A DNA stretch of 64,000 nucleotides from Nitzschia sp. pyKryTriq1 (taxonomy: Eukaryota; Bacillariophyta; Bacillariophyceae; Bacillariales; Bacillariaceae): positions 558,001-622,000 of the forward strand of contig OY101120.1 of NCBI GenBank assembly GCA_956465555.1. Direction: 5' to 3'. Position numbers and translations under genes: made by a program. Of this stretch, positions 5,543 through 10,182 are shown piece by piece (positions within the stretch are counted from its first letter, which is position 1; every line of letters starts with the position of its first letter). The notes beneath the pieces were generated by a model, which had not been told where the DNA came from, did no database searches, and worked only from the letters and a program-made list of their open reading frames with translations.

Positions 5543-6620
5543 GGTGAAGTGCAAAAATACCGGTATGTGGGAGAGTAGAGCGTAGAAACGAGTTTGATTT
5601 TTTGTGATGCACAGCTGTTGTCGGGCGCGGTTGTGCGGTTGTGGCTGTTGAGTTTTGTTTCCCAACAAACGCCGAGGCAGAACGAGAACCGAAGCACATA
5701 CACGCGGGAAGACAGCGAGAGGAGCATTTGTCGCCCGAGTTTTCAATCTCCGGATTCCGCCAAACATAATGGAAATCTTCGCAACTCGCCGCTACACGTA
5801 CGAGTACAGTACAAGTACAGAACACAGCTGCTGCCATCTGTCACTCTGCCAGAAGCGAGCAGCGCTCTCAACTAAACTGAGAGCGCTCTTCTGGCTTGGG
5901 TTGCGTGGCTCCTTGAAAAAGAGAACAGAGGAATTCCGCGCCAATCAACCCTGATGACACCGACTTTCGGTAGAATCAAATTTCAAATATGCCTCGATTT
6001 TCTTTTCTTGACAACAACCACTCGACCGGTAATACAGAACGGCGGGAAAGAATTATGACGAAAATTCTTATGGTTCTCTTCTCTTGCCTTCGGATGACGA
6101 CGTGCGTGTGTTTTACGTTCGTTTTACTGTGCTCGTACCAAGCTCGCACTGTAGATTGCCAATTGCCATGCGTGCGGTAAAGCAGGAGATGTGGTACCGG
6201 TACAGTAACGGTAGGAATGAATAGTCCATCCGATACCCAGCAGCCAGCAGCTGTACTATTACAGTAGTGGAGCTACCGTACAGGTTGACTGCCCCCACAT
6301 ACATCATCTCTCTACCGGTAGAGGAGACAGTTGGATTGTAGTATCAATAACGACGGCACGATAATACATACCCGTAAGAGTAGTGCGATATAGTAGTACT
6401 GTTACTATCTGCCGCTCTCTCTCTACTACCTAAAAGTAGAGAGAGTGCGCAAAAAAATGTCACAGTCGCTCTTATATATCTACCGGAGTGCTTAACTCTC
6501 AGCAGCAGAGTAGGTGGTCTAAAGGCATCGAGCTTTGGCTTTTCTAGCTATCAGGACATCCGCGTCTTAGTTATATATTTAGGAGCGGCTTCGCAGGACT
6601 CCAATCTACCGGTATCGAGG
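5543..6620. other. Intergenic, with a strong hairpin
   Basis: No supported gene. It contains the inverted repeat at 5848-5895, several TACCGGTA words (5568, 6194, 6312, 6610) and a CTCTCTACTACC/GTAGAGAGAG run near 6413-6445. The start of paralogue B and the end of the PNGase gene bound it, so it should hold the promoter of paralogue B. Confidence 0.6.
5848..5895. other. Hairpin-forming inverted repeat
   Basis: Left arm GCCAGAAG, a 5-nt bulge, AGCGCTCTCA; loop ACTAAAC; right arm TGAGAGCGCT then CTTCTGGC. That gives 18 perfect base pairs with one bulge. It lies about 300 bp upstream of the paralogue B start codon. It could be a small foldback element or a structured RNA; nothing further can be read from it. 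Confidence 0.85.
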
Positions 6621-9600
6621 CTAGTCCTGCGAGTGCTCACAAGCACCGGTGCCAATATTTTCAGTCAATCTCGATAAGGTTTGATTCAAGGCCTCAAGAT
6701 CGATGGAAACTGGAATCGTGGCCTTGAAGTCTTGATTGGTTCCATAAATCTCGAACCCAAGGCCTCGCAGTAAGCTGAGACCGCCTTCTACTCTCGTGAT
6801 CTGATCAGCTACCTTGTTGCTTAGTTTGAAACTTCGGAATCGTGGCGAAAAGGGTTCTTTCGTTGCATTCTTCAAATATTTAATCGCGGTTGCCAAGGCG
6901 TCCGTCGCTATCGATGGAGAATTCCACTCCATCACACGAGTCATAGCTTCGTCCAAGGTACTAGGTCCCCCTACCGGCCCTGCTTGGAGCGATTGTCCAT
7001 CCAGGGGTCCAGGATCCAGTGCTCGGCCCATCTTCTGCTCTTCGGCAACTAACCCAACTGCCGTTGCCGCCGCTGATGTTGGATCGTTCCCTTCTGCCAC
7101 AAACTTCTCAAAGAACTCTTTTATGCGCCCTGCAGTATCCACGGGGGATGATCTAGGCTTTTGCTCTGCGAAAAGATACGGATTCTCCTTTGTGTCTCTT
7201 GATGCATCGTTCGCGCATACTTTCATCTCCTGGCAGGATAGTTCTAGCATGGACAGAATTTCTTTGCTTTCTTGCGGGATGCGCTGAAGCCAAGAGTCGA
7301 GCAATGCTTCGATTTGCAGTTCTCCGCCCCTACAGGCCATGCCTACTGCTTGCCTTGATTCACCTGCCGGGACCACAACTTGACCCGAAACAGCGTCCAG
7401 CACAACAAACGACGGTATCCCCCTTACCCCATACGTTTTATTGAGAGCTTGTCTGACCATCTGCAGTTGATCGAATGGAATGGCTTGCCACGGCATGGTG
7501 CCGAAATAGTTCTGGAAGCTGTTGACATCCCGATCGGAACTTACAAAGACTATTTCCAACCCATGAGTGGGACAATGATCCTTGAGATGTGCGTACATCT
7601 CAGCTAGCATAGGTGTGAACTGACGGCAAGGTCCACACCAGTGCGCTGAAAAGTAAAGGCCAACCAACCGAGCATTATGTAGGGCTTCCGATGTTGGGAG
7701 ACGCATGGTGTTGTTCGTCAGCAGCTGAGGGCCCAGTGAATTGTTGAAGAAGCCTATTTCCAGAGGGACTTCGTAAGCAGGCACTCCGGAAACTTTTGAT
7801 TCCCAGACAATTCCCTCGTCATCGCTGGGCACGAGGGGTGGAGGTAAAAGATGAAAGGTATTCCAAGCGTTTTCCTTCGTCGTGATCTCCAGCGTGGTGC
7901 CATCTATCCGAGACAAAGGATATGATGATGCGTCTAGTAGATAGAGTGGTACACCAGGTTTTGTCGTGTATCCTGAATACCGCCCACTGTTGGATTGGAT
8001 AAAGGATGAAAAAGCAAGTCGCTTCTGTTCTTCTGTGGCAAGAAGTTGTGTCTTAAGGGGCATAGCACTCTCCGGTAGACGACATGCCACTTTCGATGGA
8101 TATGTGTATCGTTCCGTGCGCAGCTTGAGTGGAGGTCGTAGTGGGTCGACTTGCAAAATGATTTCGTATCCTTCCGATGGGCAGTCTTCCAAAGTACTAC
8201 AAAAAGACCAATCAGGGTGAGCATCGACTTGGCCGATGAAGGCGACTCCTTTTTTCAAAAACTTGTCTTTCTTCCAGCCACCTAACCGCGCCATGTCCAA
8301 AGTCTTTACTTTTGGATCCTCTTCGCATTTTCCGTTCATGATCACGATGCGGTGGGATGGTAGTTTGGCGACAAAATCCTTCGCATCTGCCCATCTTACA
8401 AAAGATTGTGACTGCAGGACGCACCCCAGACACTCCTGATCTACCACAACTATCGAAACAGTGTCTGGCTCCCCAATGGCACATGCCGCACCAGCCACTT
8501 TGATTCCATCATGCCGCCCCAATGGTTTTGGCCGTACTTGGAGAGATAATTGGCTTGATAGGGGTGGTGAAAAGGCCTCGACCTCGAATCCAGCTACGTG
8601 CTTTTCCTTTTCTTCGGATTTGGCAGCTGTTCCTTCTTTGGATTTTCCGGCTTCCTGTCGTGATCGTTTCCACGCCAAGGACCCACTGATACGGCCTCGG
8701 CCGTATTTCTCTTGCGGCGTCCAGTCGGTCGATTGTTTGAACAACTGCAACTCGGCATCCTCTAGTTGTCGACGTCTGTTGAGCTCCTCGCGAGCTGACT
8801 TGGTCAGATTCTGTCCCAGTTCCTGATTCAGCTCTCGAATGATATGCGCGGTAGCATTTTCACTGGTAGTATGGGTACGTCGACGGGTCTGAAAATCGTC
8901 AGTGAGAAATTTACGTGTGTACCGAGGCGTCACATCCACCACATGATCCGAAGCAATCGCAATCATATAACACAATCCATCCTTGCCCCATCCGTATTCA
9001 TACATGCTGGGTTTGTCAATGATTCCTTCACAGGAGTCTGCCATAATCCAATTGTCTCCCAGTCGCACTTCGGTCCACAAATGGTCGCTCAAATCTAGGA
9101 CCAGCCTCGTTTCAAAGCCTGCTGCGCGACAAAACAAGCCAAACAGATTCGAGTATTCTCCGCAACGGCCCTTTCTTGTATCCATCAATTTTCGAGCTTT
9201 GTTGTATCGCGGGAAAGTAGTAGTATTTTCCTTGCATTCAGGACAGTAGTAGACTTGTGATGGTAACAATTCAAATAAATGATTTAGTGAGTGGAGGCAG
9301 CAAGCTCAAGTTCTGTTCTTTCCATCGTGATGTACAGACACACAGTCAGTACTCCTACATACCTTCTACTCTTTTTGCGTTGCCCTCGTTTTCTTCTTCA
9401 GTTTCTGGGCCTCGGACCGTCTTCATTTCACACTCCTTGCATCCACACTTGACACAGGGAGGTGCATTCACCCAGGTCATGAACTTTGGGAACCATCGGC
9501 AGAGACGCTGCAAGAAGAGCGCATTCGAATCGTCGGCTAGCAGCCGATCGTGATCCGGCCGACTATACGGACCGGTGGCATTTCGCAAATCATCCCAGGG

Positions 9601-10182
9601 AATCACATCTTCCCGGCACTCTTTGAGCCATTCAATATTTTCCCAATTCTGCACGGTCCGCATGGAGGACTGAATCCTCTCTTTAAACTTGTTATCATCC
9701 ACAGTCTCCATTTTATCTTCCTCCGTGTCGTTTAGCGCTGTCTTGTCTTCGTCGTCGTCGTGAGGTTCTATCGGAGGAACCAAATTTGAATTGGTACTAC
9801 CGGTGGGTTTTGCGTTTAAATTCTCTTCTGCTGGGATGTTCTTCGTTTTACTTTTTGAAGCCGTCTCTTCTAGCACGCGGCTGCTTCCCTCCGCCAGAGG
9901 TGTCTGCTTGGACGGAAGACCGTTGTTGTTGATGTAGGTGTTACTGCTTGAAGATTTGAGCGGAAAGGTGGTCGAAAATGCGGTTGTGGCAGTGAAACAG
10001 ACGACTATGAGGAGGGGAAACCAACGAAATCGGGCCAACGCCAACGCTCCTCTCGATCGATTGAGGTTGTGTCGGAAATTTCTCCTAGAAGGCGGCGGCG
10101 CCGAGACTTTGAATATTCTGTTTTGTGGTGAAGCGTGATGAGCAGCGAGTGTGTTACGGAGGACATTAACACCTTGGGTCAT
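6621..10182 (-). CDS. Peptide:N-glycanase fused to thioredoxin and PUB domains
   Basis: The gene model is complement(join(6621..9253,9363..10182)), 1150 residues. The donor is GTATGT and the intron is 109 nt. The splice joins ...KRVE to VYYCPEC..FPRYN, exactly as in NGLY1/Png1. Family knowledge: PNGase cleaves the Asn-glycan bond of misfolded glycoproteins during ER-associated degradation. Seen: Zn-binding CxxC pairs at about C243/C246 and C277/C280, then the transglutaminase-fold triad C304 (RCGEYSNLF), H331 (DHLWTEV) and D346 (ADSCE). A domain at about 520-640 resembles ILEI/FAM3 (weak). A nucleoredoxin-like thioredoxin domain has WCGPC at 812-816 and GIPSFVVLD. A C-terminal PUB domain (p97-binding in other proteins) lies at about 1048-1135. 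Near the N terminus, RFRWFPLLIVVCFTATTAF suggests a signal anchor. Animal PNGase has an N-terminal PUB; here it is C-terminal. Confidence 0.9.

Follow-up and report, generated by a model that had tools for sequence, protein, structure and literature searches.

The window (the whole stretch of 64,000 nucleotides that was analysed) holds on its minus strand a two-exon gene predicted to encode a protein of 1150 residues, in which a PNGase core, a thioredoxin domain and a PUB domain follow one another behind an N-terminus with a short hydrophobic segment (Table 1). The predicted 9254-9362 splice joins VE/VYYCPEC with the frame kept. In all, 66 GT/GC-AG options around the intron keep the frame and, among the 60 of them that were listed, the acceptor at 9254, which makes YYCPEC, is compatible with several donors; GTATGT at 9362 is judged to be the donor closest to the usual consensus among these listed options, and its use retains the first zinc pair. 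The PUB and the thioredoxin share an exon and an open frame with the catalytic triad. The scan of frames and splice options, together with the profile and sequence matches described below, confirms the main architecture given in a preliminary description of this DNA, that of a single spliced open reading frame for one chain that carries a PNGase core with the Cys-His-Asp residues and both CxxC pairs intact, a WCGPC thioredoxin of the nucleoredoxin-like type and a PUB at the C terminus.

Table 1. Features of the gene and its predicted protein, with positions numbered along the window
Feature	Position	Strand	Basis
Whole coding region, 1150 aa	complement(join(6621..9253,9363..10182))	minus	frame and splice scan; in-frame stops upstream
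Intron, 109 nt, GTATGT...CACAAG	9254..9362	minus	frame-keeping splice options
Basic N-terminus, residues 1-53, acid-free, low coding score	10024..10182	minus	composition, codon score
Hydrophobic segment WFPLLIVVCFTATTA, residues 54-68, putative signal peptide core	9979..10023	minus	hydropathy
Residues 69-155, beginning F-STTF, S/T/N-rich, transit-peptide-like, then acidic linker	9718..9978	minus	sequence
M156, first Met past the hydrophobic segment	9715..9717	minus	sequence
PNGase core, residues 167-439, intron inside	8757..9684	minus	alignment to mouse PNGase, E 3e-46
First CxxC zinc pair, C243-C246	9445..9456	minus	position in alignment
Second CxxC zinc pair, C277-C280	9234..9245	minus	position in alignment
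Catalytic triad, C304 (9162-9164), H331 (9081-9083), D346 (9036-9038)	9036..9164	minus	alignment
Weak PAW match, residues 460-498	8580..8696	minus	Pfam, E 0.0068, below cut-off
ILEI-like region of the preliminary description, residues 505-640	8154..8561	minus	without significant match
Thioredoxin_8, residues 802-898	7380..7670	minus	Pfam, E 8e-24
PUB domain, residues 1058-1116	6726..6902	minus	Pfam profile; low-confidence model

Domains of the encoded chain

A phmmer comparison with PDB sequences aligns the core to mouse PNGase (2f4m; E 3e-46) and to yeast Png1 (1x3w; E 9.3e-34); both zinc pairs fall in register, as do C304, H331 and D346, the residues of the catalytic triad. To judge from its sequence, the protein belongs to the Png1/NGLY1 family as a genuine PNGase, with deglycosylating activity predicted. 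The PAW match that follows the core is weak and below the cut-off, covering just positions 1-41 of the 197 of the profile.

The thioredoxin domain is matched by tryparedoxin PDB chains at E 1.6e-23, with WCGPC at residues 812-816 (7626-7640) and the cis-Pro motif GIPS at residue 885, and it has Thioredoxin_8 and WCGPC in common with the nucleoredoxin/tryparedoxin proteins. Three loci of the same genome (L012, L013 and L014) are 42-47% identical to it and differ from the window protein in that no PNGase or PUB is seen, by eye, in their open frames. A scan of the protein with NCBIfam returned nothing notable except thioredoxin-type models far under their cut-offs.

The PUB domain lies close to the Pfam cut-off of 34.3 bits, scoring 29.8 bits (E 5.9e-7; 4.5 bits below) in the protein scan and 34.7 bits, just above, in the six-frame genome search. 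The (Y/F)(R/K)...N pattern is kept and is common to the six other PUBs aligned (mouse and five from the genome). In a single-sequence model of the region with a low mean pLDDT of 47, the PUB of mouse PNGase was the second Foldseek match (prob 0.90, E 0.23). Twelve PUB matches occur in the genome, 11 of them above the cut-off and all inspected in the DNA, and three of the 12 fall in thioredoxin-encoding genes: the window gene, L003/L080, which is annotated by Pfam as Trx-UBA-PUB with a sub-threshold zinc finger, and L006/L076, in which a signal-like N-terminus is followed by WCGP, a GTAAGT donor and the PUB, the thioredoxin being read by eye. L006/L076 resembles the window protein in its signal-like N-terminus, thioredoxin and PUB, whereas a PNGase core is not seen in it. 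A direct Trx-PUB kinship of the window protein with L076 (second exon) or L080 was considered and rejected, with BLAST at chance level.

The one domain of the preliminary description that is not borne out is a possible ILEI/FAM3-like domain ahead of the thioredoxin, for which all of the comparisons fall at or under chance. ILEI is absent from the Pfam scan of the protein (E up to 10, with the HMMER filters dropping weak matches), a search of the genome with the ILEI profile found nothing, and no FAM3 chain was matched when the segment was compared with PDB sequences, though FAM3A-C are present in that set. Aligned to the segment with hhalign, the FAM3 profile reaches 17.2, where 100 shuffles have a 95th percentile of 16.35 and go up to 17.6; seven other segments of the protein score 10.3-15.7, below the ILEI-like region, and residues 505-640 may have a remote kinship to FAM3. 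A single-sequence structure model of residues 500-910 (mean pLDDT 34) is uninformative on ILEI or Trx.

The N-terminus and its possible destinations

The preliminary description had also placed a hydrophobic segment near residues 52-70 and read it as a possible membrane anchor. The segment is present, at about residues 54-68, with a mean hydropathy of 2.09 over these 15 residues, 1.73 over the best 19 residues and 3.0 over the nine of FPLLIVVCF; its reading as an anchor appears less economical than as a signal peptide. Were residues 54-70 an uncleaved signal anchor, the PNGase would be held at the ER or another membrane, and the 19-residue value is within the membrane-span range, for which the usual threshold is about 1.6. 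However, the strongly hydrophobic core is only about 9-11 residues long and has an acceptable (-3,-1) site at its end. Further, residues 1-54 contain ten K/R and zero D/E, the first acidic residue of the protein being E98, and such a basic, acid-free N-terminus predicts an N-in orientation with the enzyme luminal, where it would be separated from cytosolic Cdc48 and from substrates that have been retrotranslocated. A membrane-anchored PNGase that faces the cytosol is unlikely because, judged by charge, anchor and signal alike would leave the catalytic part in the lumen, and the anchor as a whole is regarded as improbable. The N-terminus would be explained at least as well by a signal peptide followed by a transit peptide of the plastid type; residues 54-68 are more probably a signal peptide than an anchor, and targeting to the plastid side is likelier than secretion.

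Under the (-3,-1) rule for signal peptide cleavage, the best site, chosen by hand, is after A68 (TTA/FSTTF) with F69 at +1. The 53 residues that precede the hydrophobic core are long for a signal peptide, which counts against the signal peptide reading, and the coding status of this stretch was scored from codon usage (trained on 40 unchecked longest open reading frames; 14,892 codons). Residues 1-52 score -0.112, under the 5th percentile (-0.075) of in-frame windows, with 0.158 for residues 53-75, 0.165 for residues 76-155 and -0.553 to -0.046 for the other frames. The PNGase core is coding-like and residues 451-520 and 651-910 are not; low scores are thus also found in clearly coding parts (the thioredoxin), since residues 651-910 score low, and of the low-scoring regions just residues 1-52 are under the 5th percentile. 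A putative cryptic intron in exon 1, 108 or 111 nt long, for which nine options give a short n-region and the donor GTAACA is weak, would produce a normal signal peptide.

The same data bear on a different explanation, in which the protein is an ordinary cytosolic PNGase of ERAD with a C-terminal thioredoxin and PUB, translated from near M156, and the hydrophobic stretch goes unused as 5' untranslated sequence or behind a minor start. Consistent with this are the non-coding-like residues 1-52 and the position of M156 just ahead of residue 167, where the similarity to mouse PNGase starts, so that initiation at M156 would yield a signal-less form with the entire catalytic core. It fits poorly with the coding-like scores of residues 53-75 and 76-155, hydrophobic core included, and with the lack of any Met from residue 2 to residue 155.

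For a protein that is targeted to the plastid side, the residue after the cleavage site is informative. ASAFind, as published, tests for plastid proteins by asking for F, Y, W or L at +1, and F at +1 is given as the rule for plastid, not periplastid, proteins (PMC12136025). F69 would by this rule take the protein beyond the periplastid compartment into the stroma, where plastid thioredoxin systems would reduce the Trx domain. In the same genome, the N-terminus that precedes the antenna match closes with (A/S/G)F(A/V/S)(P/A/E) at 19 of the 30 antenna loci examined. A position matrix for the plastid signal, built from 18 typed N-termini of antenna proteins of this genome alone, does not select the site between A68 and F69; the best score of the window protein is 2.3 and lies elsewhere, a value that 57% of the shuffles of residues 1-100 and 20% of those of residues 55-74 reach, and left-out antenna proteins score 4.8-26.9. 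RGG, which occurs near the N-terminus in five of six ERAD-type, signal-bearing proteins of the genome that are candidates for the periplastid type, is absent from residues 1-155 of the window protein, with the sole RGG at residue 915. The stroma is favoured over the periplastid space by F69 at +1 and by the lack of an RGG near the N-terminus; the periplastid space is favoured by the PUB and by the glycan substrates that the enzyme needs. To our knowledge, the stroma has no Cdc48 that could partner the PUB and no glycan substrate and, with the antenna matrix passing over the site, a stromal protein is held to be more improbable still than a membrane anchor.

PNGase copy number and possible Cdc48 partners in the genome

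The genome searched is a 40.7 Mb diatom assembly of 20 contigs, in which Silic_transp (silicic acid transporter) has eight matches, the basis on which it was taken to be that of a diatom. The Transglut_core profile finds two places, the second being a transglutaminase-like open reading frame that is matched neither by the exon-2 protein nor by the mouse PNGase core, and the mouse PNGase core finds one place, the window gene. Apart from its own gene, the exon-2 protein matches nine places in the genome, seven of them through its thioredoxin part and none through the core. No PNGase other than the window gene came up in these searches, which read single exons and scored the best candidates and which a many-intron gene could escape. 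Searches of viral contigs gave no pattern match for the exon-2 protein and 23 for the core alignment, none of which was confirmed; among prokaryote contigs there were 40 pattern matches, with two distant relatives in MAGs.

Components with which such a protein could act are encoded as well. Derlin has four matches, two of them with signal-like N-termini (by eye), and putative ER-like import machinery is present in the genome; STT3 was found, so N-glycoproteins are expected. Cdc48_N has three matches, with L065 under the family cut-off. In the open frame read for L066 no signal is seen, and the tail is EEEDLYS. L067 and L068 are each closely preceded by a signal-like open frame; L067 ends in EEDLYG, and L068 is without such a tail. 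Introns split these genes, and their frames were joined by inference. L067 and L068 match the pattern of an sCdc48 pair, one member of which carries a C-terminal HbYX motif, in the account of that pair in PMC5070193. Two of the three Cdc48-type genes therefore end in DLYS or DLYG. PUB domains bind the C-terminal tail of p97 (Cdc48), and with these tails docking of the PUB on Cdc48 is plausible, the binding being predicted.

For the cytosolic explanation the natural partner would be L066, on whose EEEDLYS tail the enzyme would dock, deglycosylating and reducing its clients like PNG-1 of C. elegans. The DLYS tail of a Cdc48 without a seen signal, and the finding of a sole PNGase in the genome where PNGases are described as cytosolic (PMC9102325), agree with this, and a cytosolic ERAD enzyme is considered rather unlikely overall. 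If the protein is cytosolic, it would still be an ERAD enzyme in which two activities are naturally combined and the PUB is movable.

Proposed role and comparison with known systems

The explanation preferred here, which is put at about even, is that a PNGase of the Png1/NGLY1 family with an added C-terminal thioredoxin and PUB is imported, by way of a signal peptide at residues 54-68, into the periplastid compartment, where it works with Cdc48. A PNGase would have gained a nucleoredoxin-type thioredoxin and a PUB at its C terminus, and the signal peptide would bring it into the secretory route and then into the complex plastid, most sensibly the periplastid compartment, which is the relict red-algal cytosol. 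In that compartment the enzyme would be docked through its PUB on the periplastid Cdc48 with the retained DLYG tail and, as Cdc48 pulls N-glycosylated preproteins through, the thioredoxin domain would reduce the disulfides of the preproteins being threaded and the PNGase core would remove their glycans. A shorter product, started at M156, could act in the cytosol. That a PNGase should bear such an N-terminus could be explained because the periplastid compartment is a relict cytosol with a PNGase-related protein reported there. Set against the periplastid explanation are, besides the length of the stretch before the hydrophobic core, the non-coding score of residues 1-52 and the antenna matrix, and the F at +1 and absence of an N-terminal RGG do not fit the periplastid pattern.

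A further point against import is that, with the sole PNGase found taken into the plastid, the host cytosol would be without any. A bolder version, in which the sole PNGase has been relocated to the relict cytosol as a three-function import factor (Cdc48 docking, disulfide reduction and N-glycan removal), leaving host ERAD PNGase-free or using the internal-start form, is doubtful. Preproteins of complex plastids cross the ER, and can acquire glycans and disulfides, before they meet the Cdc48-driven translocon; if the periplastid explanation is true, one PNGase-thioredoxin-Cdc48-docking factor would answer how glycans and disulfides both come off.

Several described proteins can be set beside the window protein. 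A protein related to Png1, a deglycosylation enzyme, has been localised to the central neck of the plastid in diatoms (Stork et al. 2012, as cited in PMC5756292), and PMC5756292 also states that it has no homologue in the cryptophyte or haptophyte periplastid. Table 2 of PMC6610115 lists both Png1 and sPng1 of Phaeodactylum tricornutum, apart from sPUB, and the periplastid sPng1 is, like the window protein, a PNGase-related diatom protein, the two being compared by description only. The P. tricornutum Png1 of Table 2 in PMC9585838, which is up by log2 2.11 under tunicamycin, has a thioredoxin and a PUB alone, without a transglutaminase core in that table, and its orthologue in the genome searched may be L003 or L006 rather than the window gene. 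In Toxoplasma, an apicoplast thioredoxin is implicated in ER-to-apicoplast trafficking (PMC5823475). A PNGase-thioredoxin-PUB chain in a diatom was not found described in the literature searched.

The PUB of animal PNGases is N-terminal as PMC9102325 outlines them, whereas that of the window protein is C-terminal. The Cys-His-Asp triad and the two CxxC pairs are common to the window protein, NGLY1 of mouse and human, and yeast Png1, and mammalian NGLY1 likewise has a PUB and works with p97. A PNGase acting with Cdc48 is an already known kind, of which the window protein would be a new arrangement. NGLY1 and Png1 are without thioredoxin, whereas the window protein has one, and just a weak start of PAW. 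The thioredoxin of C. elegans PNG-1 lies N-terminal, in contrast to that of the window protein, which is C-terminal, of the nucleoredoxin/tryparedoxin type and followed by the PUB. In PNG-1 one chain holds thioredoxin and PNGase, with both activities reported (PMC2866665, PMC9102325), and the thioredoxin replaces the PUB in the description of PMC9102325, whereas the window protein has both, both C-terminal. By analogy with PNG-1, reduction joined to deglycosylation has a biochemical precedent, and the window protein, if read correctly, would be a second thioredoxin-PNGase fusion, arranged otherwise than that of C. elegans, which would suggest that the joint removal of glycans and disulfides has been needed repeatedly in evolution.

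Thioredoxin and PUB domains in one gene

A redox part joined to a part that docks Cdc48 is a recurrent pairing in this genome, with three of the 12 PUB matches belonging to genes that code for a thioredoxin domain as well (listed below). Neither of the two genes outside the window shows any detectable kinship to the window protein.

Features in the window and in other loci of the genome
Feature	Locus	Position (nt)	Strand
PNGase-thioredoxin-PUB gene	window	6621-10182	minus
Thioredoxin-UBA-PUB gene	L003/L080		
Signal-bearing thioredoxin-PUB gene	L006/L076		
Short palindromes, several	window	6180-6610	
Short palindromes	L002	about 730-755 and 2765-2780	
PUB domain in C-terminal half of protein	L009	G000:C1:3364207-3364374	
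Simple repeat, 1848 nt	L077	658-2505	reverse

Other PUB genes and neighbouring repeats

A further PUB domain belongs to a protein (L009) with an N-terminus that, judged by eye, is Pex14-like, and its presence there would tie peroxisome import to Cdc48. Two near-identical copies of a gene for a ubiquitin-like and PUB protein (L004 and L005) are located on contigs C1 and C3, and the antenna pair L040/L041 and a third pair, again antenna and equal in score, occur on the same two contigs at similar spacing; together, these pairs suggest a segmental duplication. Short palindromes resembling TACCGGTA occur downstream of the window gene as well as in L002, and a simple repeat with the translation (SFIH)n is situated upstream of a PUB gene.

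An RGG motif in signal-bearing ERAD-type proteins

Among the signal-bearing ERAD-type proteins of the genome, five of six possess RGG in the N-terminus, namely two Cdc48 (L067 and L068), two derlins (L069 and L070), and one thioredoxin-PUB protein (L076), the exception being the Ufd1-like L085. The motif takes the form [LMI]RGG in four of the five and follows the end of the signal, as placed by hand, by 26–45 residues. RGG was absent from the first 110 residues of each of 19 antenna N-termini. The N-terminal RGG could function as a periplastid targeting motif or as a processing motif, and it resembles the tail of ubiquitin.
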